64,000 nt of DNA. It comes from Acuticoccus sediminis (GTDB taxonomy: Bacteria; Pseudomonadota; Alphaproteobacteria; Rhizobiales; Amorphaceae). This document shows positions 4,773 through 53,324 of the stretch, piece by piece. Within the stretch, counting starts at the first letter, position 1; every line of letters starts with the position of its first letter. Made by a program: the position numbers and the translations under genes. The stretch lies in assembly GCF_003258595.1 (NCBI RefSeq), contig NZ_QHHQ01000005.1, positions 124,001 through 188,000 of the forward strand, read 5' to 3'. The notes beneath the pieces were generated by a model that had not been told where the DNA came from, ran no database searches, and worked only from the letters and a program-made list of their open reading frames with translations.

Positions 4773-4963
4773 CGAAGCCCCCTCCTCACCACGGCCGGCC
4801 GAACCCGGCCGCCCCGGGGTGCGGGACGTGGAGACGGGCTGGTTGCCGTGTGGGGTCTATTGCACGGGAATGATGGCCGTAAAGCCGGTCCGCCGGGGGA
4901 CGGATCTGGACAACGCTCCCACCACGCGACACGCTTGCCCGGACTTGACGGGAGCGGTTGCGG

Positions 4964-5914
4964 ATGAGCGTCGGCGATTTGCAGGCTTTGGAGGGCGAAG
5001 AAGCGTCTCCAAGGGTGGGAATGGCCGATCGGCTCCGCAGCATCGCCGTCGCCCTGCCGCCGTACATCTGGCTGCTCGCCTTCTTCCTCGCGCCGTTCAT
5101 CATCGTGCTGCGGATGTCGTTTTCCGAATCGGTGATCGCGCAGCCGCCCTACAGCCCGACGTTCGACATATCGCAGGGCCTCTCCGGGCTGTGGGAGAGC
5201 GTCAAGGAATTCTCGACCTTCAACTACACCTTCCTCGCCGAGGACTCGCTCTACTGGCGCGCCTACCTCTCATCGGTGCGGATCGCGGCGATCTCGACGG
5301 TGATCACGCTCCTGATCGGCTTTCCGATGGCGTACGCGATGGCGCGCGCGCCGCTTCGGTGGCGCCCGCTCCTCCTCGCGCTGGTGATCCTGCCGTTCTG
5401 GACGTCGTTCCTGATCCGCGTCTACGCCTGGATCGGGATCCTGAAGCGGGACGGACTGCTCAACCAGCTCCTCATGTCCCTCGGGGTGATCACCGAGCCG
5501 CTGACGATCCTCAACACGGAGCCGGCGGTGTTCATCGGCATCGTCTACGCCTACCTGCCGTTCATGGTGCTGCCGCTCTACGCCTCGCTGGAGCGGCAGG
5601 ACCCCGCGTTGCTGGAGGCGGCCTCCGACCTCGGCAGCCCGCCCTGGCTGGCGTTCTGGCAGATCACCGTGCGCCTCGCCGTCCCCGGGATCCTCGCCGG
5701 GTGCCTCCTCGTCTTCATTCCGGCGGTGGGCGAATTCGTCATCCCCAACCTTTTGGGCGGATCCAGCACGCTGATGATCGGGCAGACGTTGTGGGACGAG
5801 TTCTTCTCCAACCGCGACTGGCCGCTCGCCAGCGCAGTGGCAGTGATCCTCGTGCTGGTGCTGGTGGTGCCGATCACCATCTTCCAGCGCGCCCAGTCGC
5901 GGACGACCGGCTGA
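4964..5914 (+). CDS. ABC transporter permease, PotB-like (spermidine/putrescine/Fe class)
   Basis: 316-residue inner-membrane permease with about six transmembrane helices and the cytoplasmic EAA loop (EAASDLGSPPWLAFWQITVRL, residues about 205-225) that docks the ATPase. Belongs to the polyamine/opine/compatible-solute class of ABC importers. The ATG at 4964 is preferred over an in-frame TTG at 4958 because GGGAG at 4950-4954 is correctly spaced for the ATG. The PotC partner starts one base after its stop. Neither an ATPase nor a periplasmic binding protein is adjacent, so the transporter must borrow these from elsewhere in the genome. Confidence 0.88.
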   Translation: MSVGDLQALEGEEASPRVGMADRLRSIAVALPPYIWLLAFFLAPFIIVLRMSFSESVIAQPPYSPTFDISQGLSGLWESVKEFSTFNYTFLAEDSLYWRAYLSSVRIAAISTVITLLIGFPMAYAMARAPLRWRPLLLALVILPFWTSFLIRVYAWIGILKRDGLLNQLLMSLGVITEPLTILNTEPAVFIGIVYAYLPFMVLPLYASLERQDPALLEAASDLGSPPWLAFWQITVRLAVPGILAGCLLVFIPAVGEFVIPNLLGGSSTLMIGQTLWDEFFSNRDWPLASAVAVILVLVLVVPITIFQRAQSRTTG

Positions 5915-5915
5915 C

Positions 5916-6704
5916 ATGGCCCGGTTCACCCGCTTCAACGCCGTTTCCCTCGCGCTCGGGATGGCGTTCCTCTACCTGCCGATCGTCCTCCTGATCATCT
6001 TCAGCTTCAACGAGTCGCGGCTGGTGACGGTGTGGGGCGGCTTCTCCACCAAGTGGTACGTGGAGCTTTTCCGTAACCAGCAACTGCTGGACGCGGCGCG
6101 CGTGTCGATCCTGGTGGGGCTCACCACGGCGTGCATCGCGACGGTCCTCGGCACGCTGGCGGCCGTCGCGCTGACGCGGACGGCACGCCTTCCCGGCCGC
6201 TCGCTGTTCACGGCGATGACCTACGCGCCGCTCGTGATGCCGGAGGTGATCACCGGCCTCTCGCTGCTCCTGCTGTTCGTCGCGCTGGGCATCGACCGCG
6301 GGTTCTGGACCATCACCATCGCGCATACTACCTTCGCGCTGTGCTTCGTCGCGGTGGTCGTGCAGTCGCGCCTCGCAGCGTTCGACATGAGCATCGAGGA
6401 GGCGGCGCAGGACCTCGGCGCGCCGCCCTGGAAGGCGTTCCTCCTGGTGACGCTGCCGGCCATCGCGCCGGCGGTCGCCGCGGGCTGGCTCCTCGCCTTC
6501 ACGCTGTCGCTCGACGACCTGGTGATCGCGAGCTTCACCTCCGGGCCGGGGTCGACGACGCTGCCAATGAAGATCTTCTCGGCCGTGCGCCTCGGCGTCT
6601 CGCCGGACATCAACGCGGCGTGCACCATCCTCATCGGCATCGTCGCGGTCGGCGTCGTGGCGGCGACCTTCGCCACGGGGTACCGGACGCGGCGCGCGGG
6701 CTGA
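5916..6704 (+). CDS. ABC transporter permease, PotC-like
   Basis: 262-residue second permease of the heterodimeric pore, paired with the PotB-like protein that ends one base upstream. About six hydrophobic segments, with the EAA loop in EEAAQDLGAPPWKAFLLVTLP around residues 160-180 and the C-terminal LDDLVIASF pattern of PotC proteins. Expected to import a small cationic or amine-containing solute. The substrate cannot be inferred without its binding protein. The gene converges with the quinone oxidoreductase on the minus strand, with a GC-rich stem-loop between them. Confidence 0.88.
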   Translation: MARFTRFNAVSLALGMAFLYLPIVLLIIFSFNESRLVTVWGGFSTKWYVELFRNQQLLDAARVSILVGLTTACIATVLGTLAAVALTRTARLPGRSLFTAMTYAPLVMPEVITGLSLLLLFVALGIDRGFWTITIAHTTFALCFVAVVVQSRLAAFDMSIEEAAQDLGAPPWKAFLLVTLPAIAPAVAAGWLLAFTLSLDDLVIASFTSGPGSTTLPMKIFSAVRLGVSPDINAACTILIGIVAVGVVAATFATGYRTRRAG

Positions 6705-8880: not shown

Positions 8881-10500
8881 TCAGGTGACCGACACATTCG
8901 CAAACGATCCGAACACGCCTTCCAGGTCGTCGGTGATGCCCGAGACACGCGTGTTGTAGACGGTCGTGTAGTCGATGTTCAGGAGCGGGATGATGGGCAG
9001 TTCCGTCATCGCCAGCACCTGCATTTGATAAAAAAGCGCTTCACGCTCGGCGGGATCCACCGCGGTCTGCGCCGCCTCCAGTATCTGGTCCATCTCCGCG
9101 CTCGCGTAACCCGATCCATTGGTATAGGGCACGCCCGGCCGGATGTTCTTCGACCAGAACATGCGCTGCACGCCGATGGTCGGATCCGGCAGGTTAAAGA
9201 TGCCGTAGGACGCGGTCTGGTACTCGTTCGTGCCCCAGACGCGGCGGCTGAAGGTCGGCGCGTCGGTGTTCATCACCTCGACCTCGATGCCGATGACCTT
9301 CATCGCCTGGCGGAAGTATTCCGCAAAGCGGCGGTACTGCTCGGTGTAGGTCGAGGGGTCGTGGGTCATGCGGAACCGCACGCCATCGCTCTGGCGCGGG
9401 AAGCCCGCCTCGTCCAGCAGTGCCTCGGCCTTCGCGGTGTCGAACGGATAGCTCGGCACGTCCGGGTTGTACCAGCGGGAGAGCTTCTGCGAGATCGGCC
9501 CGGTCGCCGGCGAGGCGAAGCCGAACCAGATGTTCTGGGCGACGAAGTCCTTGTCGATCGCATGGGCGACCGCCTGGCGCACACGCACGTCCTGGAACTG
9601 CGGGTCGCGCATGTTGAACTCGAAGTAGTACATCGCGCCGCACAGGGCATAGCCCTCGGTCGTCACGGCGAGGTCCGGCAGCTCCTCCACCCGCGCGATG
9701 TCGCTCAGCGAGACCGGGTCGGTGCCGCCGAGGTCGATCTCGCCGGTCTCGAATGCGGCCGCGCGCGTGCCCGCGTCGGGGATGAAGCGATAGAACAGGC
9801 GGTCGAGCAGCGGGCGGCCCTCCTGCCAGTAGTCCTCGTTCTTGTCGAGGAGGAGGTACTGGCCCTTCTCCCACTTGGAGAACTTGAACGGGCCGGTGCC
9901 GATCGGCTTCGTGTTCGCCGGGTTCCCGATCGGATCGGAGCCTTCGTAGATGTGCTTGGGCAGCATCGGCGACTCGGAGGCCGAGAGCGCCGACATGATG
10001 TAGTTCGACGGGGTCGACAGCTTCATCACCGCGGTCAGCTCGTCCGGCGTCTCCACCTCGGTGAGGTTGGCGAAGGTGGCCCGGCCGCGCGGGTGGTGCT
10101 GGCTGAGGATCTCCTCGAAGGTGAACTTCACGTCCGCCGAGGTGAACGGCTTGCCGTCGTGCCAGGTGACGCCGTCACGCAGCTTGAAGGTGATCGACAG
10201 GCCGTCGTCCGCCAGCTCCCACGCCGTCGCCAGCGAGGGGGTCGGGTTGAATTCCTTGTCGTAGCCGATCAGCCCTTCCAGCATCTTGGGCGAGATCTGC
10301 TGCACCATGATCGCGGTGTTGAAGGCGGTGTTGAGCGTCGGCGGCTCGGGCACGAGGACGGCGCGCAGCATGTTCTTCGGCGTGGCCGCGACGGCCTGTC
10401 CGACCACATCGCCGAGCGATACCAGCCCGGTGGACTGGAGGGCGGCATAGCCGGCCAAACCGCCCAGAAGCTTCAGTCGGTCGCGAGCCGTCAGGTTCAT
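8881..10500 (-). CDS. ABC transporter substrate-binding protein, dipeptide/oligopeptide class (SBP_bac_5)
   Basis: 539-residue periplasmic binding protein of the DppA/OppA family. The N-terminus has a basic RDRLKLL stretch followed by a hydrophobic segment to about residue 38, giving an export signal of somewhat Tat-like character. The SBP_bac_5 pattern LRDGVTWHDGKPFTSADVKFTF lies near residue 107, and GTGPF near 200 is typical. No cognate permease or ATPase genes are nearby, so it is an orphan that probably feeds a transporter encoded elsewhere. A GGGGAA site precedes the ATG. The promoter region, shared divergently with the AtzG/AtzE genes, holds a 21-base inverted repeat that recurs at the IclR promoter, so it may supply the substrate of that catabolic cluster. 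Confidence 0.9.
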   Translation of the reverse strand: MNLTARDRLKLLGGLAGYAALQSTGLVSLGDVVGQAVAATPKNMLRAVLVPEPPTLNTAFNTAIMVQQISPKMLEGLIGYDKEFNPTPSLATAWELADDGLSITFKLRDGVTWHDGKPFTSADVKFTFEEILSQHHPRGRATFANLTEVETPDELTAVMKLSTPSNYIMSALSASESPMLPKHIYEGSDPIGNPANTKPIGTGPFKFSKWEKGQYLLLDKNEDYWQEGRPLLDRLFYRFIPDAGTRAAAFETGEIDLGGTDPVSLSDIARVEELPDLAVTTEGYALCGAMYYFEFNMRDPQFQDVRVRQAVAHAIDKDFVAQNIWFGFASPATGPISQKLSRWYNPDVPSYPFDTAKAEALLDEAGFPRQSDGVRFRMTHDPSTYTEQYRRFAEYFRQAMKVIGIEVEVMNTDAPTFSRRVWGTNEYQTASYGIFNLPDPTIGVQRMFWSKNIRPGVPYTNGSGYASAEMDQILEAAQTAVDPAEREALFYQMQVLAMTELPIIPLLNIDYTTVYNTRVSGITDDLEGVFGSFANVSVT

Positions 10501-10701
10501 CTACGTTCCCCGTGCGTGAGAGGCATGAATGCGGTGGCCCGAGGGCCTTCATCTCGGTGCCTCGCTCGCAGCCATCGTGCGGGCGAAGCTGGGCATTTCC
10601 ATAGACGGAAGCGGCGGAGCGTGCCCACTGACGGGGGCGCCTTTTCGCCGACCAGCGAAGTTTAATGATGGACATCCCGTCCGTGTCAATATATAAAATT
10701 A

Positions 10702-10722
10702 TTGTTCCGACATTTGGAACAA
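10702..10722. promoter_or_regulatory. IclR-type operator, TTGTTCC-N7-GGAACAA
   Basis: Perfect inverted repeat with 7-base arms (10702-10708 and 10716-10722) around a 7-base centre, in the 361-base region between the divergent binding-protein gene and the AtzG gene. It is the strongest copy of a TTCC-N7-GGAA motif also present at 16498 and 18208. Its AT-rich setting in a GC-rich genome and its presence at the IclR gene itself support an IclR operator. The rest of 10501-10861 shows no gene. Confidence 0.7.
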
Positions 10723-10861
10723 CGGCGTACAATGCCCGCCCCCGTCCTTTCAGGACGATTGGAGCCGCGATCCCCCAGGCCAGGACCGCACGATTCTGCG
10801 GCGCCCTCGCCGGACGGGCTCGCCCGGACGTGTTGTCGCAGCGATCGAGGGAGGGCCGCCG

Positions 10862-11068
10862 GTGCCGGACGACCGCACAATCAGTGCCGACAACGCGGTG
10901 GCTGACGCCGAACTGGACGCCATGGCGAAACTCGTCGGGCTCGACATCCCGGCCGCCTTTCGTGACGGGGTGCGGCATCAGCTCGCACTGAACGCGCGCC
11001 TCGTCGCCCCGCTGGAGCGCTTCACTCCGGACGCCGACGCGGCCCCCGCCCCGGTCTTCGAGCCTTGA
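10862..11068 (+). CDS. AtzG-like small amidase subunit (DUF4089)
   Basis: 68-residue helical protein resembling AtzG, the small partner of 1-carboxybiuret hydrolase AtzE. The AtzG-AtzE pair is structurally related to GatC-GatA, and AtzG packs on the amidase and is needed for a stable heterotetramer. The GTG start at 10862 follows GAGGGAGGG with 6 bases between. The Pro/Ala-rich C-terminal tail (about 54-68) resembles the extended tails of GatC-like proteins. The stop overlaps the amidase start (TTGA), so the two subunits are translationally coupled. Small size and context make the call fairly secure; the substrate is unknown. Confidence 0.78.
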   Translation: MPDDRTISADNAVADAELDAMAKLVGLDIPAAFRDGVRHQLALNARLVAPLERFTPDADAAPAPVFEP

Positions 11069-12426
11069 AGGCGCTGGACGCCGCGACGATCGCGCGCAGC
11101 GTCGCGGCCGGCGCGACCCGTGCCCGCGACGTGGTCGACGCCTCGCTCGAGCGGATCGAGGCCGGCGACGGGGCGATCAACGCCTTCACCGCCGTGACCG
11201 CGGAGCGCGCGCGCGCCCGGGCCGATGCCGTCGACGCCGACGTGGCGGCCGGCCGGCATGTCGGGCCGCTCGCCGGTGTCCCGTTCGCGGCCAAGAACCT
11301 CTTCGACGTCGCCGGGCTCACGACGGTCGCCGGTTCGGTGATCCTCGCCGACAATCCGCCCGCGGCGGCGGACGCGCAGTGCATCGCCGACCTCGAGGCG
11401 GCCGGCGCCGTCCTCGTCGGCGCGCTCAACATGGAAGAGCTCGCCTACGGCTTCCTGACCGACAACGCCCATTATGGCCGCACCCACAACCCGGTCGACA
11501 CCGCGCGGACCGCCGGCGGCTCCTCCGGCGGGTCGGGCGCGGCGGTCGCCGCCGGGTTCGTGCCGCTGACCCTCGGTTCGGACACCAACGGGTCGGTGCG
11601 CATTCCGGCCGCGTTCTGCGGCGTCGTCGGCCTGAAGCCGACCTACGGGCGGATCAGCCGGCGCGGGATGGTGCTCCTCGCCCCCAGCCAGGACCACGTC
11701 GGGTGGCTCGCGAACACGGTCGACGACGTCGCCGCCGCATGGCGCGTCAGCCACCCCTCGCCCGGCGCCCTCGCAACCGATGGCGCCGCGCCGCGGGAAG
11801 CGACGATCGGCCTCGCCGGCGGCTATTTCGCCGAACTGATGAGCCGCGACGTGCGCGCGGCCGTCACAGAGGCGGCCGAATTGCTCGGCCCGACGGTGCC
11901 GGTGGAGTTTCCCGAGCCCGACATGGCCCGCGCCGCGGCCTACGCGATCACCTCCATCGAGGCGTCCTCGCTGCGGATGGACGACCTCCGCCGCCAGCCG
12001 GAGCGGTTCGACCCTGCGACGCGCGACCGCTTCCTCGCCGGCGCGCTCCTGCCGGCCCACTGGTACGTCAGGGCGCAGGTGTTCCGCGACTGGCTGCGCG
12101 CCCGCGTGCGGGAGCTGTTCGAGCGTGTCGACGTCGTCATGATGCCGGCGAACCCCTTCCCCGCCCCCCGGTTCGGCGAGGAGGAGGTCGAGATCGACGG
12201 CGCGATCCACCCTGTGCGGCCGACCATCGGGCGCTTCACGCAGGCCGTGTCCAGCCTCGGCCTACCCATCGTGTGCGTGCCGGTGGCACGGCCGGGCGCC
12301 CTTCCCGTCGGCGTGCAGCTGATGGGCCGGCCGGACAGCGAACCCCTGCTCCTCGACGTCGCGCGCCGCCTCGAGGGCGCCGTCGCAGCCCGCAACGCCG
12401 CGGCCGTCACCGCACACAGCGCCTGA
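11065..12426 (+). CDS. AtzE-family amidase (amidase signature enzyme)
   Basis: 453-residue amidase-signature hydrolase. The Ser-cisSer-Lys triad is visible: K77 in FAAKNLFDVAG, the cis-Ser S153 in GGSSGGSGAAVAAG and the nucleophile S177 in GSDTNGSVRIP. Best fits the AtzE/GatA-like branch because an AtzG-like subunit is encoded directly upstream and overlaps it. AtzE hydrolyses 1-carboxybiuret in cyanuric-acid breakdown, but many AtzE homologues act on other amides. The start is TTG at 11065, inside the upstream stop. It is followed by two RidA genes, and no AtzD (cyanuric acid hydrolase) or allophanate hydrolase is in the window, so the classical triazine pathway is not supported here. Confidence 0.85.
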   Translation: MKALDAATIARSVAAGATRARDVVDASLERIEAGDGAINAFTAVTAERARARADAVDADVAAGRHVGPLAGVPFAAKNLFDVAGLTTVAGSVILADNPPAAADAQCIADLEAAGAVLVGALNMEELAYGFLTDNAHYGRTHNPVDTARTAGGSSGGSGAAVAAGFVPLTLGSDTNGSVRIPAAFCGVVGLKPTYGRISRRGMVLLAPSQDHVGWLANTVDDVAAAWRVSHPSPGALATDGAAPREATIGLAGGYFAELMSRDVRAAVTEAAELLGPTVPVEFPEPDMARAAAYAITSIEASSLRMDDLRRQPERFDPATRDRFLAGALLPAHWYVRAQVFRDWLRARVRELFERVDVVMMPANPFPAPRFGEEEVEIDGAIHPVRPTIGRFTQAVSSLGLPIVCVPVARPGALPVGVQLMGRPDSEPLLLDVARRLEGAVAARNAAAVTAHSA

Positions 12427-12474
12427 CGGCCGTGCCGCCACGGCCAGAGACCTGATCAACGACAAGGACGCTTC

Positions 12475-12825
12475 ATGGACATCAAATACGTCGGATCCGG
12501 CACCCGCTACAGCCGGGCGGTGATCCACAACAACACAGCCTATCTGGCCGGGAACGTCGCCAAGGATCCCGCGCCGACGGCCGCCGAGCAGTGCCGCCAG
12601 ATCCTGAAGCAGATCGAGGCGACCCTGGCGCTCTGCGGGACGGACAAGACCAAGCTGCTCACCGCCAACATCATCTTCGCCGACATGCGCGACTTCGACG
12701 CCGTCAACGAGGTGTGGGACGAGTGGGTGTCGGACGGCGGCTCGCTGCCGACGCGCACGCCGATGGAATCGAAGCTCGTGACGCCGCGCCACCTGGTGGC
12801 GATCCAGGTCACCGCGGCGGTCTGA
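12475..12825 (+). CDS. RidA family (YjgF/YER057c/UK114) protein
   Basis: 116-residue single-domain protein of the RidA superfamily, trimeric enzymes that hydrolyse reactive imine/enamine intermediates to keto acids and ammonia, or catabolic relatives such as RutC. The key carboxylate-binding arginine is present (R94 in LPTRTPMESKLV), so imine deaminase activity is plausible. ATG with AAGGA upstream. Sits 48 bases after the amidase and 4 bases before a second RidA gene, in what looks like one transcript from 10862. In this context it probably processes an unstable amine or enamine made by the pathway. Confidence 0.85.
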   Translation: MDIKYVGSGTRYSRAVIHNNTAYLAGNVAKDPAPTAAEQCRQILKQIEATLALCGTDKTKLLTANIIFADMRDFDAVNEVWDEWVSDGGSLPTRTPMESKLVTPRHLVAIQVTAAV

Positions 12826-12829
12826 GGCG

Positions 12830-13177
12830 ATGCAGATGCGCCATATGGGCGACGGCCCGGGCTCGGCCGAAGCGGTGATCCACGACCACGTGGTCTACCT
12901 GCCGGTCATCACCGCGCCGGTCTACACGCCGTCGGTCACCGGCCAGACGCAGCAGGTGCTGGACGCCATCGACGCGCGCCTTGCCGCCGCCGGCACCAGC
13001 AAGAACCGCATGCTGAGCGTCACGGTGTTCGTCTCGGACGCGCGCTTTCTCGATGAGATGCACGCGCTTTGGGATCAGTGGGTCCCGTGGCACGATCCCC
13101 CCGTCTGCACCGAGCTCGTCGCCAAGATGGCGCCGGAGGGGGCCAAGGTCGGTGTGCAGGTGATCGCGGCCGAATAG
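12830..13177 (+). CDS. RidA family protein lacking the key arginine
   Basis: 115 residues, clearly related to the preceding RidA protein (shared WDxWV near residue 81 and a similar C-terminal strand). The loop that carries the substrate-binding arginine is five residues shorter, and the equivalent position is Asp89 (in WHDPPVC). Without the Arg the canonical imine deaminase reaction is unlikely. It could be a non-catalytic partner, forming mixed trimers with its neighbour, or a catabolic RidA subgroup with altered chemistry. The ATG is 4 bases past the upstream stop, so it is co-translated. Confidence 0.78.
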   Translation: MQMRHMGDGPGSAEAVIHDHVVYLPVITAPVYTPSVTGQTQQVLDAIDARLAAAGTSKNRMLSVTVFVSDARFLDEMHALWDQWVPWHDPPVCTELVAKMAPEGAKVGVQVIAAE

Positions 13178-13241
13178 GCCGCGGCGGCGCCCGCTCCCCC
13201 GGGCTCGATGGAGCGGGCGCAGCTGGTGATCGTCAGTCGGA

Positions 13242-13275
13242 GCGTCCTGCCTGCATGCGACAATGCGCAGGACGC
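13242..13275 (+). repeat. inverted repeat / stem-loop in the leader of the molybdenum hydroxylase gene
   Basis: Perfect 9-base arms GCGTCCTGC (13242-13250) and GCAGGACGC (13267-13275) with a 16-base loop, ending 48 bases before the hydroxylase start. There is no T-run after it, so it is not a standard terminator. It may be an mRNA processing or stabilising hairpin, or an operator separating the two parts of the operon. Confidence 0.5.
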
Positions 13276-13323
13276 AGAGGCCAGGGTGGCGGCATCTCCC
13301 GCCGCCGTCGGACGGATGCGCGT

Positions 13324-15618
13324 ATGAAGTTCGGAGCCGGCGGCCGGCCAAGCCGCCTCGAAGATGGCCGACTGATCACCGGCACGGCGGCGTTCACCGA
13401 CGACATGGCGCCGGCGGGGCACCTCGTCCTCGGAGTCCTGCGCGCGCCGTTCGCTCATGGACGCATCGCCAGTATTTCGGTGGACGGCGCTCTGGCGATG
13501 CCGGGGATCGTCGCCGCCGTCACCGGGCGCGACCTCGTGGCCGACGGCGTCGGCCCGATCCCGGTGCTGCGGGACTATCCCGGTCCGGACGGAACCGGGG
13601 CGATGACGGCTCCGCCGCGCCATGCGGTGGCGGTCGACATGGTCCGCCACGTGGGCGAGATCGTCGCCGCGGTGGTCGGCGAGACGCTCGCGGCGGTCAA
13701 CGACGCGCTGGAGGCGATCGCGTTCGAGATGGACGAGCGGGACGCGGTCCTTTCGCTCGCCGCCGCGACCGCCCCCGGCGCCCCTCTTGTGGCACCCGAA
13801 GCGGGCGGCAACGTCGTCACCGGCCGCACTCACGGCGACCCGGAGCGCGTCGCCGCCGCGTTCACCGCGGCGGCGCATGTGGTGGAGCTCGCGGTCGAGA
13901 ACCAGCGCGTCACCGCGCTGCCGCTCGAGCCACGCGCCTCGGTCGCGATCCCGTCAACTGACGGGCGCGTCACGCTGCACACCGGGTCGCAGAACCCGAC
14001 GGCGACCCTGCAGCAGCTCGCCGAGACGCTGGGCGGCGACAAGGCCTCGCTGCGCATCAGGGTGCCGGACATCGGCGGCGGCTTCGGCCTCAAGGGCTAC
14101 CTCTACCCTGAGGACGTCCTCGTCACCTACTTCGCCGCGCGCCTAGCCCGTCCGGTGCGCTGGCGGGCGGTCCGGGTCGACGAATTCCTCGGCGCGACCC
14201 ACGCGCGCGACCAGGTCACGACCATCGCGGCCGCATTCGATGCGGACCTCCGCGTCACCGCCATGCGAAGCCACACGCTGGTGAACGTCGGCGCCTACCC
14301 GCACCCGGCCGGCCCCATCCTCGCCCTTATGCTGGGGCCGAAGGTCGCCGCGAGCGTCTACGACATTCCGGCGGTCGCCATCGCCGTCGAGGGCGTCCTG
14401 ACCAACACGCAGGCGACCGCCCCCTACCGCGGGGCGGGCCGGCCGGAGGCGATCTACGCGATGGAGCGGCTGATGGACCACGCCGCCGCGCGCTTCGGCG
14501 TCGACCCGGCCGAGCTGCGTGCGCGGAGCCTCATCAGGCCCGAGGCGATGCCCTACCGCACGGCGCTCGGCGAGACCTTCGATTCCGGCAACTTCCCGGA
14601 AGTCCTCGCGCAGATCCTGCGCGCGGCGGACTGGGACGGTTTCCCCTCGCGGCGGAGCGGGAGCGCGGCGCAAGGGCGACTGCGCGGACGCGGCCTCTCG
14701 ATGTTCGTCGAGTGGACCGGCGGCGGCGCCTTCACCGAGGACGTGACGATCGCCGTCCACGCGGACGGGACCGTCTCGCTCGAAACCGCGACGATCCCGA
14801 TGGGCCAGGGCCTCCACACCTCGTTCGCCCAGATGGCGGGGGCGATCCTGGAGATCCCGCCGGAGCGAATCCGCCTGCTGTCCGGCGACACGGATGTCGC
14901 GAACGGGTTCGGGTCCTTCGGCTCCCGCTCCCTCTTCGTCGGCGGCAGCGCTCTCGCGGTGGGCACGCACCACACGCTGGACGTCCTGCGCCAAAAGGCC
15001 AGCGACAGGCTGGAGGTCGACGGTGCGGACCTCGAATACCGGGCGGGACGGTTCGATGTCGCGGGGACGGACGTCGGCGTCTCGATCTTCGACCTCGCGG
15101 CGGAGGCGGGCGGCACCATCGGCGTCCCGTTCTCGCACACCGTCTCGGGGGAGACCTGGCCCAACGGCGCGCACGTCTGCGAGGTGGAGGTCGACCCCGT
15201 GACGGGTGAGGTCGCCGTGGTGCGCTACACCTGCGTCGACGACGTGGGCACCGTGGTGAACCCGCAGATCGTCGAAGGGCAGATCCACGGCGGCGTGGTG
15301 CAGGGCATCGGCCAGGCGCTGTCGGAGCGCATCGTCTACGACGAGGCGTCGGGCCAGCTCCTGACGGCCTCGCTGCAGGACTACGCCGTGCCCCGGGCGG
15401 ACGACCTCTGCCCCATTCACAGCGTCCTCGACGAGCGCTGGCCGTGCCGCAACAATCCGCTCGGCGCCAAGGGGGCGGGCGAATCCGGAACCGTCGGCGC
15501 GCCGCCGGCGGTGATGTCGGCGTTGCTAGACGCGCTCAGGCCGCTCGGCGTCGAGACGCTGGACATGCCGGCGACGCCCGACCGGGTCTGGGCCGCGCTT
15601 CAGGCCGCCCGGCGATAG
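13324..15618 (+). CDS. molybdopterin-binding large subunit, xanthine dehydrogenase/CO dehydrogenase (CoxL form II-like) family
   Basis: 764-residue molybdenum hydroxylase large subunit. The active-site loop is PYRGAGR (residues 367-373), the form II pattern, rather than the Cys-containing AYxCSFR loop of true CO dehydrogenase. The catalytic glutamate is E720 in GAKGAGESGT. A molybdopterin-cytosine-dinucleotide binding pattern (IPMGQGLHTSFAQM) lies near residue 495. Such subunits hydroxylate N-heterocycles or aldehydes with water as oxygen source, but need a [2Fe-2S] small subunit and usually an FAD subunit; neither is encoded nearby. The start at 13324 gives the usual length. It is convergent with the IclR gene, with 31 bases between. 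Probably hydroxylates an intermediate of the amide/heterocycle pathway. Confidence 0.85.
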   Translation: MKFGAGGRPSRLEDGRLITGTAAFTDDMAPAGHLVLGVLRAPFAHGRIASISVDGALAMPGIVAAVTGRDLVADGVGPIPVLRDYPGPDGTGAMTAPPRHAVAVDMVRHVGEIVAAVVGETLAAVNDALEAIAFEMDERDAVLSLAAATAPGAPLVAPEAGGNVVTGRTHGDPERVAAAFTAAAHVVELAVENQRVTALPLEPRASVAIPSTDGRVTLHTGSQNPTATLQQLAETLGGDKASLRIRVPDIGGGFGLKGYLYPEDVLVTYFAARLARPVRWRAVRVDEFLGATHARDQVTTIAAAFDADLRVTAMRSHTLVNVGAYPHPAGPILALMLGPKVAASVYDIPAVAIAVEGVLTNTQATAPYRGAGRPEAIYAMERLMDHAAARFGVDPAELRARSLIRPEAMPYRTALGETFDSGNFPEVLAQILRAADWDGFPSRRSGSAAQGRLRGRGLSMFVEWTGGGAFTEDVTIAVHADGTVSLETATIPMGQGLHTSFAQMAGAILEIPPERIRLLSGDTDVANGFGSFGSRSLFVGGSALAVGTHHTLDVLRQKASDRLEVDGADLEYRAGRFDVAGTDVGVSIFDLAAEAGGTIGVPFSHTVSGETWPNGAHVCEVEVDPVTGEVAVVRYTCVDDVGTVVNPQIVEGQIHGGVVQGIGQALSERIVYDEASGQLLTASLQDYAVPRADDLCPIHSVLDERWPCRNNPLGAKGAGESGTVGAPPAVMSALLDALRPLGVETLDMPATPDRVWAALQAARR

Positions 15619-15649
15619 GCCGACCGGAACCGGGCAGCCCGGACGCCCG

Positions 15650-16426
15650 TCAGGCCGAGGAGGCGGACAGGGCGTCGGACGCGGCCCGCCCGGCCTCGAC
15701 GACGGCCGGCGCGATCTCCCGGATCCGCTGGCGGGTGAGACGCTGGGTCGGGCCGGAGATGCCGATGGCCGCAACCGCCGCCCCGCCCAGAGCGAAGACG
15801 GGGGCGGCGATGCCGGCAACGTCCGCCCGATGCTCGCCGGTGTTGCGGGCGTAGCCGAGCTTGCGGATCTGCGCCATCTCGGCGTCGAGCGCCTCGGGGT
15901 CGGTGATGGTACGCGGGGTGAACCGGATCATTGACTGGATCGCCGCGTCGCGAAGATGCTCGTAGTTGTAGGCGAGGAGGACCTTGCCGGACGCGACGCA
16001 GTGGAGCGGCGCCGTCTCGCCGCGCTCGGTGTAGGCGCGTACGGTCTGGTCACTGTCGATCTTGTCGATATGCATGACGTGCGCGCCCTCGATGACCGAG
16101 AGGTGCACGCTCTCCCCCGTCGCCTGGACGAGGCCGTGCATCGCCGAGACGCACAGGCCGGCGATACGCTGGTGGCTCATCAGGGCGGTGCCGAGACGCC
16201 AGAGCTTGAGGCTCGCCCGGTAGGTCCGGTCGGGCTCCTGCGCGGCGTAGTTCATTTTGCACAATGTCTTCACAAGCCGATGAACATTTGATTTGTTCAT
16301 CGACAGCTGCGCCGCGATCTCCGTGATTCCGAGAGGCTTCGGGGACGCCGCGAGGGTCTCCAGGATCTGAAGCCCTTTGGACAGGGTGCTGTCCACCCGC
16401 TCCGTGCTCTCCCCACGCTCGGTCAT
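15650..16426 (-). CDS. IclR family transcriptional regulator (cluster 1)
   Basis: 258 residues with an N-terminal winged helix-turn-helix (about 12-75; LGITEIAAQLSMNKSNVHRLVKTL is the recognition region) and a C-terminal IclR effector domain (about 90-255) with the usual AIGISGPTQRL motif near 220-230. Binds DNA as a dimer or tetramer and responds to a small organic ligand. ATG with AAGGGG upstream. Divergent from the glyoxalase-fold gene. A TTCC-N7-GGAA repeat is centred 79 bases upstream of its start, and the same repeat occurs at two other promoters of the region, which supports autoregulation plus control of the catabolic genes. Confidence 0.92.
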   Translation of the reverse strand: MTERGESTERVDSTLSKGLQILETLAASPKPLGITEIAAQLSMNKSNVHRLVKTLCKMNYAAQEPDRTYRASLKLWRLGTALMSHQRIAGLCVSAMHGLVQATGESVHLSVIEGAHVMHIDKIDSDQTVRAYTERGETAPLHCVASGKVLLAYNYEHLRDAAIQSMIRFTPRTITDPEALDAEMAQIRKLGYARNTGEHRADVAGIAAPVFALGGAAVAAIGISGPTQRLTRQRIREIAPAVVEAGRAASDALSASSA

Positions 16427-16497
16427 GTCGCCCCTTCTCGTCGTGAACGCCGCAGCTTGAGAAGCCTAACACCGCGTGCCAATATCTAGAACTGTCG

Positions 16498-16512
16498 TTC
16501 CATATATTGGAA
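16498..16512. promoter_or_regulatory. IclR-type operator, TTCCA-N5-TGGAA
   Basis: Inverted repeat TTCCATATATTGGAA with 5-base arms, fitting TTCC-N7-GGAA. It sits almost midway between the divergent IclR gene (start 16426) and the VOC gene (start 16572), so one site could control both promoters. Confidence 0.65.
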
Positions 16513-16571
16513 GAATCAAACAATACCAGCCCGTTCACGGCACTGTGCGCGCGCCGGCCGTCGGAGATCCC

Positions 16572-17213
16572 ATGCAAAACGTCATAGACCACGTCGCGAT
16601 CGGAGCGGCCACACTGGAAGCCGGCGGCGCGGCCCTGAAGGATATGCTGGGCGTCGAGCTGGCGCCGGGCGGCAAGCATCCGGACATGGGAACGCACAAC
16701 CGCCTCACGCGAACGGGCCCCGGCGAATTCGTCGAGCTGATCGCGATCGACCCCGAGGCCCCCGCCCCCGGCCATCCCCGGTGGTTCGGCCTCGACGAGG
16801 CGGCCACCAGGGCCCGCCTCGCCGCGGGGCCCGCGCCGGTCTCCTGGGTCGTGCGCACCGACGATCTCAACGCCGTGCTCGCGGCGACGCCGGAGGACGT
16901 CGGCACCCCGCGCCGCCTCAGCCGCGGCAACCTGACCTGGACACTCACCGTGCCGGAATCGGGCGTCGCGGCGCTCGGCGGGCTGGTGCCCTCGTTCATC
17001 CAGTGGGATGCCGAGCCGCATCCGGCGACGGGCATGCAGGACGCCGGACTGAAGCTCGCCGGCATCACCCTGAAGTCGCCGGAACCGGCGAAGGTCGAGG
17101 CCTTCCTCGAGGCGGTCGGCATCGCCCATCTCGCCACCGTGGAGGAGGCGCCCGTGGCCGGCCTCGGCTTCACGCTGCTGACGCCGGACGGACGGACCGT
17201 CACGCTCGGCTGA
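16572..17213 (+). CDS. glyoxalase-like (VOC fold) domain protein
   Basis: 213 residues of the Glyoxalase_3-like group: VIDHVAIGAATLEAGGAALKDMLG at the N-terminus, then NRLTRTGPGEFVELIAID, and a second half-domain from about residue 140. VOC enzymes use a metal to isomerise, hydrolyse or cleave small molecules; H6 and an acidic residue in the EFVELIAID strand are candidate ligands. Starts at ATG 16572 behind GGAG; an in-frame ATG at 16476 would overlap the IclR operator and adds non-homologous residues. Divergent from the IclR regulator and probably controlled by it. Reaction unknown. Confidence 0.72.
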   Translation: MQNVIDHVAIGAATLEAGGAALKDMLGVELAPGGKHPDMGTHNRLTRTGPGEFVELIAIDPEAPAPGHPRWFGLDEAATRARLAAGPAPVSWVVRTDDLNAVLAATPEDVGTPRRLSRGNLTWTLTVPESGVAALGGLVPSFIQWDAEPHPATGMQDAGLKLAGITLKSPEPAKVEAFLEAVGIAHLATVEEAPVAGLGFTLLTPDGRTVTLG

Positions 17214-17298
17214 CGCCGCCGCCTCGACCCGCCCCTGTTTCAGCCCGCCCCTGTCTCGACCCGCGCGTGTCTCGGCCCGCTCCGGCCCCGTCCCGCGC

Positions 17299-18054
17299 TC
17301 AGACCGTGTAGTTGAGCGCCAGGCGGCCGCCGTCGACGAAGATCGTCTCACCGGTGATGTAGCTCGACTTGTCGCTGGCGAGGAAGGTGACGACGTCGCC
17401 GATCTCGCTCGGCTGGCCGAGGCGGTGGATGGGGGTGCGTGACATCACCATCCGCATCGCCTCCTCGCTGGCGGCGACGCCCTTCATCATGTCGGTGAGG
17501 ATCGAGCCGGGGCCGACCGCGTTGACGCGGATGCCGTGGTCGATGAGCGCCAGCGCGGACGCCTTGGTCAGCTGCGCCACGCCGCCCTTGGAGGCGCAGT
17601 AGGCCGCGATCGCCGGGATCGCCACCACCGCGTTGATCGAGGACATGTTGACGATGCTGCCCTTGATCCCTTCGGCGACCATGTGCCGCGCGACCGCCTG
17701 GGTGGTGCGGAAGGTGCCTGTGAGGTTGACCGCGAGCACCTTCTCGAAGTCCGCGACCTCGAGGTCGAGGAACGGCTTGCCGATGGCGATGCCGGCGTTG
17801 TTGACCAGCACGGAGATCGGGCCGAGGGCGACGATGGCGGCGTCGAGCATCGCGGCGACGCTGGCGTCGTCGGCGACGTCGCAGTGAATGGCGACGGCGT
17901 CGCCGCCGATCGACGCGGCGGTGGCCCTGGCGGCCTCGAGGTCGATGTCGGTGACGGCGACCTTGGCGCCCTCGGCGGCCAGCGCCTCGGCGCACGCGCG
18001 GCCGATCCCCTTGGCCGCGCCGGTCACGATGGCGCTTCGCCCTGAAAGTAGCAT
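17299..18054 (-). CDS. SDR family oxidoreductase
   Basis: 251-residue classical short-chain dehydrogenase. Cofactor motif TGAAKGIG at residues 11-18, NNAG near residue 88, catalytic Ser in NMSSINAV and YxxxK in YCASK near residue 153. An Asp at the end of the second strand (VTDID) suggests NAD(H). ATG with AAGGAGAG upstream. Its promoter region (18055-18240) contains the TTCC-N7-GGAA repeat shared with the IclR gene, so it is a likely member of that regulon although separated from it by the VOC gene. Substrate unknown. Confidence 0.9.
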   Translation of the reverse strand: MLLSGRSAIVTGAAKGIGRACAEALAAEGAKVAVTDIDLEAARATAASIGGDAVAIHCDVADDASVAAMLDAAIVALGPISVLVNNAGIAIGKPFLDLEVADFEKVLAVNLTGTFRTTQAVARHMVAEGIKGSIVNMSSINAVVAIPAIAAYCASKGGVAQLTKASALALIDHGIRVNAVGPGSILTDMMKGVAASEEAMRMVMSRTPIHRLGQPSEIGDVVTFLASDKSSYITGETIFVDGGRLALNYTV

Positions 18055-18207
18055 GTCGTCTCTCCTTCGCCGCGCCGGGCGCCAGCGTCCGCGCGGTGTC
18101 CGGACGGCGGGCGCCCGGGTCCGCGATCGGCCGATGCGCGCACCGCCGTCAGGCGCCCGAAGCGGCCCGGGACGGACGCGTGGGCGCGCCGCGCGTTGGC
18201 CCTATCG

Positions 18208-18232
18208 TTCCGAATACCGGAAACATTGTTCC
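18208..18232. promoter_or_regulatory. IclR-type operator TTCCG-N5-CGGAA with an extra TTCC half-site
   Basis: Inverted repeat at 18208-18222 fitting TTCC-N7-GGAA, followed by another TTCC at 18229-18232 that also pairs with the GGAA in opposite order. It lies 154 bases upstream of the SDR start, in the 391-base gap before the L,D-transpeptidase. Apart from this site and the terminator at 18361 the gap shows no gene. Confidence 0.6.
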
Positions 18233-18360
18233 GTATAAAGACACGCCGTCCGGCCCGCCGCAAGTGCCGCGCGCCTGACGGCTGCCGCGGCGACGGCCCG
18301 GCCGGAACCCACCGGGACGGCGGACCGGAAGCGGCGCCGTCCCGCGCCGTGCCGCAAGCG

Positions 18361-52503: not shown

Positions 52504-52516
52504 TCCACAATATGGA
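52504..52516. promoter_or_regulatory. IclR-type operator 2, TCCA-CAATA-TGGA, over the iclR start codon
   Basis: Same TCCA-N5-TGGA pattern as operator 1, 119 bases away centre to centre. The ATG of the regulator gene (52512-52514) lies inside it, so bound regulator would also sit on its own translation start region. Confidence 0.6.
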
Positions 52517-53324
52517 CATTGCCGACACAGAGCCCGACAGCCGGGGCGGAACCCAGAGCGTCGACCGCGCCCTTTCGCTGCTGGCGCACATCGCCCGCGC
52601 CGGCGGCGGCGTGTCGATCGTCGCCCTCGTGGCCGAGACGGGACTGAGCCGCCCGACCGTGCGGCGACTGCTCCTCGCTCTCATGCGCTCGGGCCTCGTC
52701 GAGCAGGACGCGGTGACGCGCGACTACGCGCTGGGCCCGGAGGCCTACCTCGTCGGCCTCATGGCGCAGCGCCGCTTCGACCTCGTGGACCTCGCCATCG
52801 ACAGCCTCGTCAAGCTCTCGGCCGAGAGCGGCGACACCTCTTTCCTCACCGTCCGGCGCGGCGCCCACGGCGTGTGCATGCACCGCGAGGACGGCGACTT
52901 TCCGATCCGCACGCAGGCGCTGCAGGTGGGCGACCGCCACCCGCTCGGCGTCGGCGCGGGCTCGCTGGCGATCCTCGCCGCGCTGGAGCCGGCGGAGGCG
53001 GAGGCGGCGATCGCCCAGAACGCCTGCGCCCTGACGAACTATTACCCGAACTACTCGCTGCCCCTCGTGCGCCGTATGGTCGAGGAGACGCGGGCGCGCG
53101 GCTGGTCGCTCAATCCGGGTCTCAACGTCGCCAATTCCTGGGGCATCGGGATGGCGCTCAGGGCGCCGGGCGGCGCGATCATCGGCGCCTTCTCCATCGC
53201 CGCGCTGGACGTGCGCCTCGGCGCCGAGCGGCAACAGGAACTCGCCGTGCTGCTGCGGCGCCAGGCCGCCACCTTCGAGGAGCGCCTGGAGCGAAGGCTG
53301 AACGTCACCGCAGCCGTCGCCTGA
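52512..53324 (+). CDS. IclR family transcriptional regulator (cluster 2)
   Basis: 270 residues. Winged helix-turn-helix about 14-78 (SIVALVAETGLSRPTVRRLLLALMRSGLVEQD) and effector-binding domain about 90-265 with MHREDGDFPIRTQALQVGDRHPLGVGAGSLAILAAL. Divergent from the TRAP-SDR operon and followed 30 bases later by the acyl-CoA ligase on the same strand. The ATG has no Shine-Dalgarno site, suggesting a leaderless or very short-leader mRNA, and it lies inside an operator half-site pair. Likely controls both the TRAP operon and its own operon in response to the imported acid or its CoA ester. Confidence 0.92.
   Translation: MDIADTEPDSRGGTQSVDRALSLLAHIARAGGGVSIVALVAETGLSRPTVRRLLLALMRSGLVEQDAVTRDYALGPEAYLVGLMAQRRFDLVDLAIDSLVKLSAESGDTSFLTVRRGAHGVCMHREDGDFPIRTQALQVGDRHPLGVGAGSLAILAALEPAEAEAAIAQNACALTNYYPNYSLPLVRRMVEETRARGWSLNPGLNVANSWGIGMALRAPGGAIIGAFSIAALDVRLGAERQQELAVLLRRQAATFEERLERRLNVTAAVA

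Follow-up and report, generated by a model that had tools for sequence, protein, structure and literature searches.

Background

Do three copies of one short inverted repeat, lying in separate intergenic gaps, mark the binding sites of a single regulator? The question is raised by a 64,000-nucleotide stretch of the Acuticoccus sediminis genome (contig NZ_QHHQ01000005.1, positions 124,001 to 188,000; hereafter, the window), in which an initial annotation had seen the repeat TTCC-N7-GGAA at three promoters and proposed that a nearby IclR-family protein binds all three. Our analysis indicates that each repeat is one half of a 36-bp pair of boxes, and that the IclR protein encoded at 15650-16426 likely binds the three composite operators and controls its own gene together with a VOC-family gene, a divergent unit of a solute-binding protein (SBP) gene and atzG, and an SDR oxidoreductase gene. 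To judge from sequence, this regulon is well supported for the iclR/VOC and SBP/atzG sites and less so for the SDR site, and the surrounding breakdown genes are probably switched together.

The core repeat and the composite operator

An exact pattern search of the window found TTCC-N7-GGAA three times, at 10705-10719, 16498-16512 and 18208-18222, in the SBP/atzG gap, the iclR/VOC gap and the gap upstream of SDR, where the initial annotation had placed its inverted repeats; the seven-base arms TTGTTCC/GGAACAA that it described at 10702-10722 and the extra half-site that it reported at the SDR promoter (after 18222) are likewise present. Three copies compare with a mean of 0.52 expected for the window, and 0 of 100 shuffles gave three. 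Across the genome (7,759,911 bases in 44 contigs), the core occurs 76 times versus 69 times for a backwards-read control pattern. The genome-wide count is therefore at chance, an outcome that the initial annotation had itself named as refuting: the 15-bp repeat alone does not discriminate, a genome scan with it would mislead, and the idea of TTCC-N7-GGAA as a specific motif has to be given up.

What does discriminate is a longer unit. The available part of the survey by Suvorova and Gelfand (2021, PMC8222616) gives the IclR group 1 operator consensus as GKTYCRYW3-4RYGRAMC and records, for 94 IclR regulator groups (not all), tandem sites with centres 18-22 nt apart, an arrangement that fits a pair of IclR dimers on the same face of the DNA. 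Each core in the window is half of a 36-bp pair of such group 1 boxes, with centres 21 bp apart. Scored out of 15 against GKTYCRYW3RYGRAMC, the boxes are good rather than perfect matches, at 12, 14 and 13 for box B and 12, 11 and 13 for box A (sites 1-3). The second box lies exactly 21 bp off at every window site (-21, -21 and +21), and the same 21 nt, within the published range for tandem sites, separates the iclR/VOC boxes of two congeners (genomes G007 and G003). When correctly oriented, the three window pairs and the iclR/VOC pairs of these congeners share the pattern TGYCWWTATHYRRAA-N6-TTCSRNHWDTYRRAA. Box A has TGYC as its outer arm, both in the window copies and at the iclR/VOC sites of the congeners, so the pair is asymmetric and oriented; it faces atzG, VOC and SDR at sites 1, 2 and 3, ending 142, 59 and 153 bp before their assigned start codons.

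10684..10719, plus strand: composite operator 1, with box A TGTCAATATATAAAA at 10684-10698 and box B TTCCGACATTTGGAA at 10705-10719; toward atzG, SBP divergent
16477..16512, plus strand: composite operator 2, with box A TGCCAATATCTAGAA at 16477-16491 and box B TTCCATATATTGGAA at 16498-16512; between iclR and VOC, toward VOC, kept in two congeners
18208..18243, minus strand: composite operator 3, with box A TGTCTTTATACGGAA at 18243-18229 and box B TTCCGGTATTCGGAA at 18222-18208; toward SDR, takes in the extra half-site, weakest in the matrix tests

The summed second-box score at ±21 was reached by 0 of 20,000 flank shuffles, a figure obtained with a spacing that was picked after sight of the sites. 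Allowing any spacing from 18 to 22 gives a joint P of 0.00065 (flank shuffles), with single-site values of 0.062, 0.16 and 0.006, so that two of the three are not significant on their own. Searching the window with the 36-bp pattern at up to 3 mismatches returned the three sites without a mismatch, one of which also matched on the opposite strand with 3, and nothing in 100 shuffles; since the pattern was made from those same sequences, this is description more than test. Pairs of boxes with a summed score of at least 24 occur in the window three times at 21 bp and twice each at 15, 18, 20, 22, 23 and 24 bp, which makes the spacing seen in this pair scan modest evidence only.

Comparison with other copies of the core is less circular. 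Fifty of the 76 core places in the genome (those listed) were examined one by one, and their mismatches to the composite run 0, 0, 0 and then at least 9. The TGYC outer arm is found at three of the 50, all three being the window sites, and a ranking that combines the published box score with that of a second box 21 bp away puts the window sites within the top four. A second box scoring at least 11 is present at five, of which L178 and L168 lie beyond the window. At L178:1501-1536, which has an AsnC-type regulator on one side and a PALP enzyme on the other, TTCC-N7-GGAA is accompanied 21 bp away by a second box that scores 11; this place (G000:C2:785866) was considered as a further operator and left out, with 9 mismatches to the composite.

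Matrix tests of the individual sites

A matrix built only from the iclR/VOC sites of G007 and G003, which we consider the cleanest test for sites 1 and 3, was scored at 667,004 positions on both strands. It gave 46.9 for the window's iclR/VOC site, 27.2 for SBP/atzG, 23.2 for L092:992 and 20.2 for SDR. A three-site matrix from outside the window, in which an orphan operator of G007 (see below) joins the two congener sites, was run over 1,124,019 bases, overlaps included; among distinct places the window sites rank first to third (50.7, 41.5 and 27.3), and the next other place scores 23.3. Its independence is incomplete, since it was a matrix of the SBP/atzG and SDR sites that had led to the orphan. 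Leave-one-out scores for all six sites range from 28.6 to 50.4, with SDR at 29.7 and the orphan at 28.6. By these matrices, site 1 (SBP/atzG) is well supported, and the SDR site and the orphan lie near the edge by score alone, the orphan's position adding weight to it.

Conservation in congeners and an orphan operator

The genes beside the operators include the putative regulator and a block of probable catabolic genes:

15650..16426, minus strand: iclR, 258 aa, probable regulator (IclR_C, 8.8e-44; HTH_IclR, 1.5e-15)
16572..17213, plus strand: VOC / Glyoxalase_3 protein, divergent from iclR (PF13468, 1.2e-42)
17299..18054, minus strand: SDR oxidoreductase (profile search)
8881..10500, minus strand: solute-binding protein family 5, SBP (PF00496, 6.9e-91)
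10862..11068, plus strand: AtzG-like subunit (PF13318, 2.2e-8)
11065..12426, plus strand: AtzE-family amidohydrolase (TIGR02715, 536.4 bits, above the cut-off of 425.75)
12475..12825, plus strand: RidA-family protein 1 (PF01042)
12830..13177, plus strand: RidA-family protein 2 (PF01042)
13324..15618, plus strand: molybdenum hydroxylase large subunit, CoxL/XdhA type by Pfam (PF20256, PF02738, PF01315; no NCBIfam model at cut-off)

An orthologue of iclR was found in 3 of 10 family genomes and, across the order, in 4 of 397 (own genome included in both counts); the fourth is 45% identical and has no exact composite. G007 and G003, the two of nine family relatives in which the orthologue was found, both retain the iclR/VOC box pair at the regulator's own promoter, with a degenerate box B in G003 (TTCG...AAAA). 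In both, divergent iclR and VOC stand between the same neighbours, Usp and YkuD. Conservation within the gap begins some 20 bases to the iclR side of box A and continues to the end of box B, the alignment being poor beyond. Neither G007 nor G003 has a match to SBP, atzG, atzE, either ridA or coxL (E <= 1e-8) in the roughly 20 kb that flank iclR to either side, and the SDR matches there are only 35-38% identical.

In G007, the gap between Usp and iclR is 819 nt long and corresponds to the place of the SBP-atzGE-ridA-ridA-coxL block in the window strain. It contains no recognisable gene (three open frames without a Pfam match, and no meaningful protein match) and one 97-nt piece with 76% similarity to the DNA that follows Usp in the window. 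It also contains the orphan composite operator (L020:19598-19633), which scores 30.3 with the three-site window matrix versus 12.5 for the next non-operator place in 39.8 kb, a score reached by 0 of 300 gap shuffles. The orphan is closest to the SBP/atzG operator (25 of 36 bases, compared with 17-21 for the others), and the identical 36 bases are found in Acuticoccus yangtzensis JL1095 (L016:8867-8902). Of seven proteins that the three genomes share, six are closest between the window strain and G003 and one between the window strain and G007; none is closest between G003 and G007.

The block, or at least its operator, was probably ancestral and lost in both congeners, leaving the A. yangtzensis operator as a relic; alternatively, it is possible that the window strain gained the block beside an older operator. 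Our first idea, a recent gain of the block in the window strain, is weakened by the orphan operator in A. yangtzensis. Two relatives retain the regulator and VOC but have no such block there, and one of them still has an operator in its place; we may be looking at a regulon in change. A bolder and rather doubtful extension is that an operator can outlive its operon: the orphan would be the remnant of a deleted operon and would still be bound, as a decoy for the regulator or as the promoter of an unannotated small RNA, and the directional pair of a TGYC box and a TTCC box would form a distinct IclR operator subtype.

Weighing the regulon against other explanations

How much of the IclR regulon in the initial annotation survives? 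The shared operator, which belongs to a known IclR class, the copy at the regulator's own promoter and the location of the targets in separate transcription units are all supported by sequence evidence; the discriminating unit has changed, from the 15-bp repeat to the 36-bp tandem, and a loose palindrome has become a precise 36-bp operator open to test. Several points weigh against the regulon. The matrix scans covered at most 15% of the genome, and 26 of the 76 core places lie outside the set examined one by one. With the two-congener matrix the SDR site comes fourth, after L092, and with a three-species iclR/VOC matrix it drops to fifth (17.2), after both L092 and L088; the best other place with a six-site matrix, again L088, reaches 28.5, not far from what SDR and the orphan score when left out. 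A looser pattern, GTTCCRNNWNNYGGAAV, was rejected as proof because it is circular (built from the three sites) and no commoner in the strain's own genome than its control, with 6 matches at 5 distinct places (three of them the window sites) versus 8. Operators 1 and 3 also stand farther from the start codon (142 and 153 bp) than the family's usual site position as given in the available part of PMC8222616. Taken alone, the SDR site could be a chance occurrence.

Of the competing explanations, the one that fares best is cross-talk, in which another of the strain's IclR paralogues occupies the sites, all or only some of them, and the local protein is one of several readers. The window protein has the marks of the family (258 aa, HTH_IclR and IclR_C both above the Pfam cut-off), but the genome holds 19 IclR_C genes (E <= 1e-10), and related sequences do accompany other members. 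In congener G002, a perfect single GTTCCATTAAGTGGAAC (GTTCC-N7-GGAAC; L111, near 1501-1517) has a PALP gene on one side and, on the other, a different IclR gene (27% identical overall). On contig C9 of G000, an IclR paralogue is preceded by a related tandem (L088:1127-1162) that scores above some chance places but has different palindrome arms, ATCCC-N7-GGGAT. The exact core is present at 3 of the 19 fetched IclR loci; at two of the 18 other paralogue loci it lies beyond the 3' side of the IclR_C match, and only at the window iclR does it precede the IclR gene and contain an AT-rich spacer. The composite, moreover, is kept at the window iclR in three species, and we consider cross-talk improbable. 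Because the same motif class sits at a different IclR gene in G002, the motif alone does not name the regulator: the class belongs to the IclR family, and its assignment to the window IclR relies on the conservation of the composite at this gene and on position. The second IclR gene of the window (52512-53324, plus strand, ORF of 270 aa, IclR_C match at G000:C5:176773-177267) has no exact TTCC-N7-GGAA in its fetched locus.

It is very unlikely that the sites are promoter or terminator elements instead of operators. Conserved bases do reach some 20 bp to the iclR side of box A, and the outer arm of box A reads, on the opposite strand, TTGACA toward SBP and TTGGCA toward iclR, a -35-like hexamer; but inverted repeats paired at 21 bp are those of a published IclR class, and a promoter scan found no sigma-70-like match in any of the three gaps. 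That negative result counts against our own interpretation as well, and makes the overlap of operator and promoter a suggestion only. Site 1 carries a terminator-like flag on the minus strand, whereas sites 2 and 3 have no terminator-like match. Finally, the 8-base core is at chance genome-wide, and the window also has box pairs at other spacings; even so, it is hardly credible that a common short palindrome should have turned up in three AT-rich gaps by chance, given the second boxes at 21 bp jointly in all three, an SBP/atzG site that comes second with a matrix built without it, and an orphan copy at the corresponding place in A. yangtzensis.

Proposed mechanism and target genes

In the regulon that we favour, two dimers (a tetramer) presumably bind each composite, whose group 1 boxes lie two DNA turns apart, and the IclR protein would act on its own gene and VOC, on the divergent SBP and atzG-atzE-ridA-ridA-coxL unit, and on SDR. 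As the box A arm resembles a -35 hexamer, occupancy would shut off the leftward SBP and iclR promoters, and relative to atzG, VOC and SDR the composite always has one orientation, facing the gene. A small metabolite, perhaps derived from an amide or N-containing compound handled by SBP, AtzGE, RidA and CoxL, may alter occupancy. A dual role similar to that of BhcR, with the regulator's own gene repressed and the target activated, is possible.

The predicted targets, namely a solute-binding protein, an AtzGE-type amidase, two RidA proteins, a molybdenum hydroxylase subunit, VOC and SDR, suggest that an amide or N-containing compound is taken up and broken down. Relatives of the individual proteins were found elsewhere (own genome included in each count of genomes). 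AtzE has relatives in 63 of 397 genomes of the order (E <= 1e-110), and the 29 AtzE loci from other genomes (L028-L056, about 1.5 kb on each side) contain no SBP, atzG, ridA or coxL homologue (E <= 1e-6) and one SDR homologue of 36% identity. CoxL has relatives in 10 of 385 genomes of the class; nine short CoxL loci, five of them also taken at greater length, show no ridA or atzG homologue, with low-identity matches to SBP (L073, 28%), to part of atzE (L076, 39% over 142 residues) and to SDR (L075, 32%). SBP relatives occur in 14 of 376 genomes, and among 16 such loci only L142 has an amidase (31% identical). For SDR, relatives in six genomes (L154-L159) have no exact core in the fetched loci. 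Among plasmid records, 31 contain AtzE relatives (E <= 1e-80) and 4 contain IclR relatives (E <= 1e-40), none of which reaches 60% identity.

No medium or small subunit for the molybdenum hydroxylase at 13324-15618 was found among the neighbouring genes run through Pfam, and none was sought elsewhere. Permease genes near SBP (4958-6704) are kept in congeners that lack SBP, and for this reason may not be its partners. Two SBP paralogues are located at G000:C1:599430-602965. Among the literature matches listed, we found nothing on AtzE with RidA and IclR, nor on this regulator in Acuticoccus; the uncharacterised AtzGE/RidA/molybdenum-hydroxylase block is now tied to a specific candidate regulator.

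Comparison with known systems

The three-box IclR operators of the PcaU type require both a palindrome and an external half-site for binding. The extra half-site at site 3 may be of this kind or part of a second box at 21 bp, which it also fits. BhcR of Paracoccus denitrificans is the best NCBIfam match of the window protein, and a divergent promoter is found in both systems; according to the available part of its description, BhcR is believed to act as a repressor at its own gene and as an activator at its target (PMC11323563). As a BhcR equivalog the window protein was rejected, since it reaches 177.2 bits with NF045644, below the cut-off of 350, and the window regulator is thus not BhcR. 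A likeness at the DNA level is offered by GenR of Corynebacterium glutamicum, listed in Table 1 of PMC8222616 with the operator ATTCC-N7(5)-GGAAT and with 3-hydroxybenzoate/gentisate targets: compared by operator only, arms and spacer length are alike, whereas the targets differ.

Group 1 itself, as far as the available part of PMC8222616 describes it, provides a further parallel. TTCC-N7-GGAA is the core of the group 1 consensus with W3, and the sites share with the group the odd-length box, the 7-base spacer, the TTCC/GGAA arms, the AT-rich centre, the 21-nt tandem and a site in the regulator's own divergent promoter. Unlike group 1, the window sites and the congeners' iclR/VOC sites have the TGYC outer arm in box A, which gives the pair its asymmetry and orientation.

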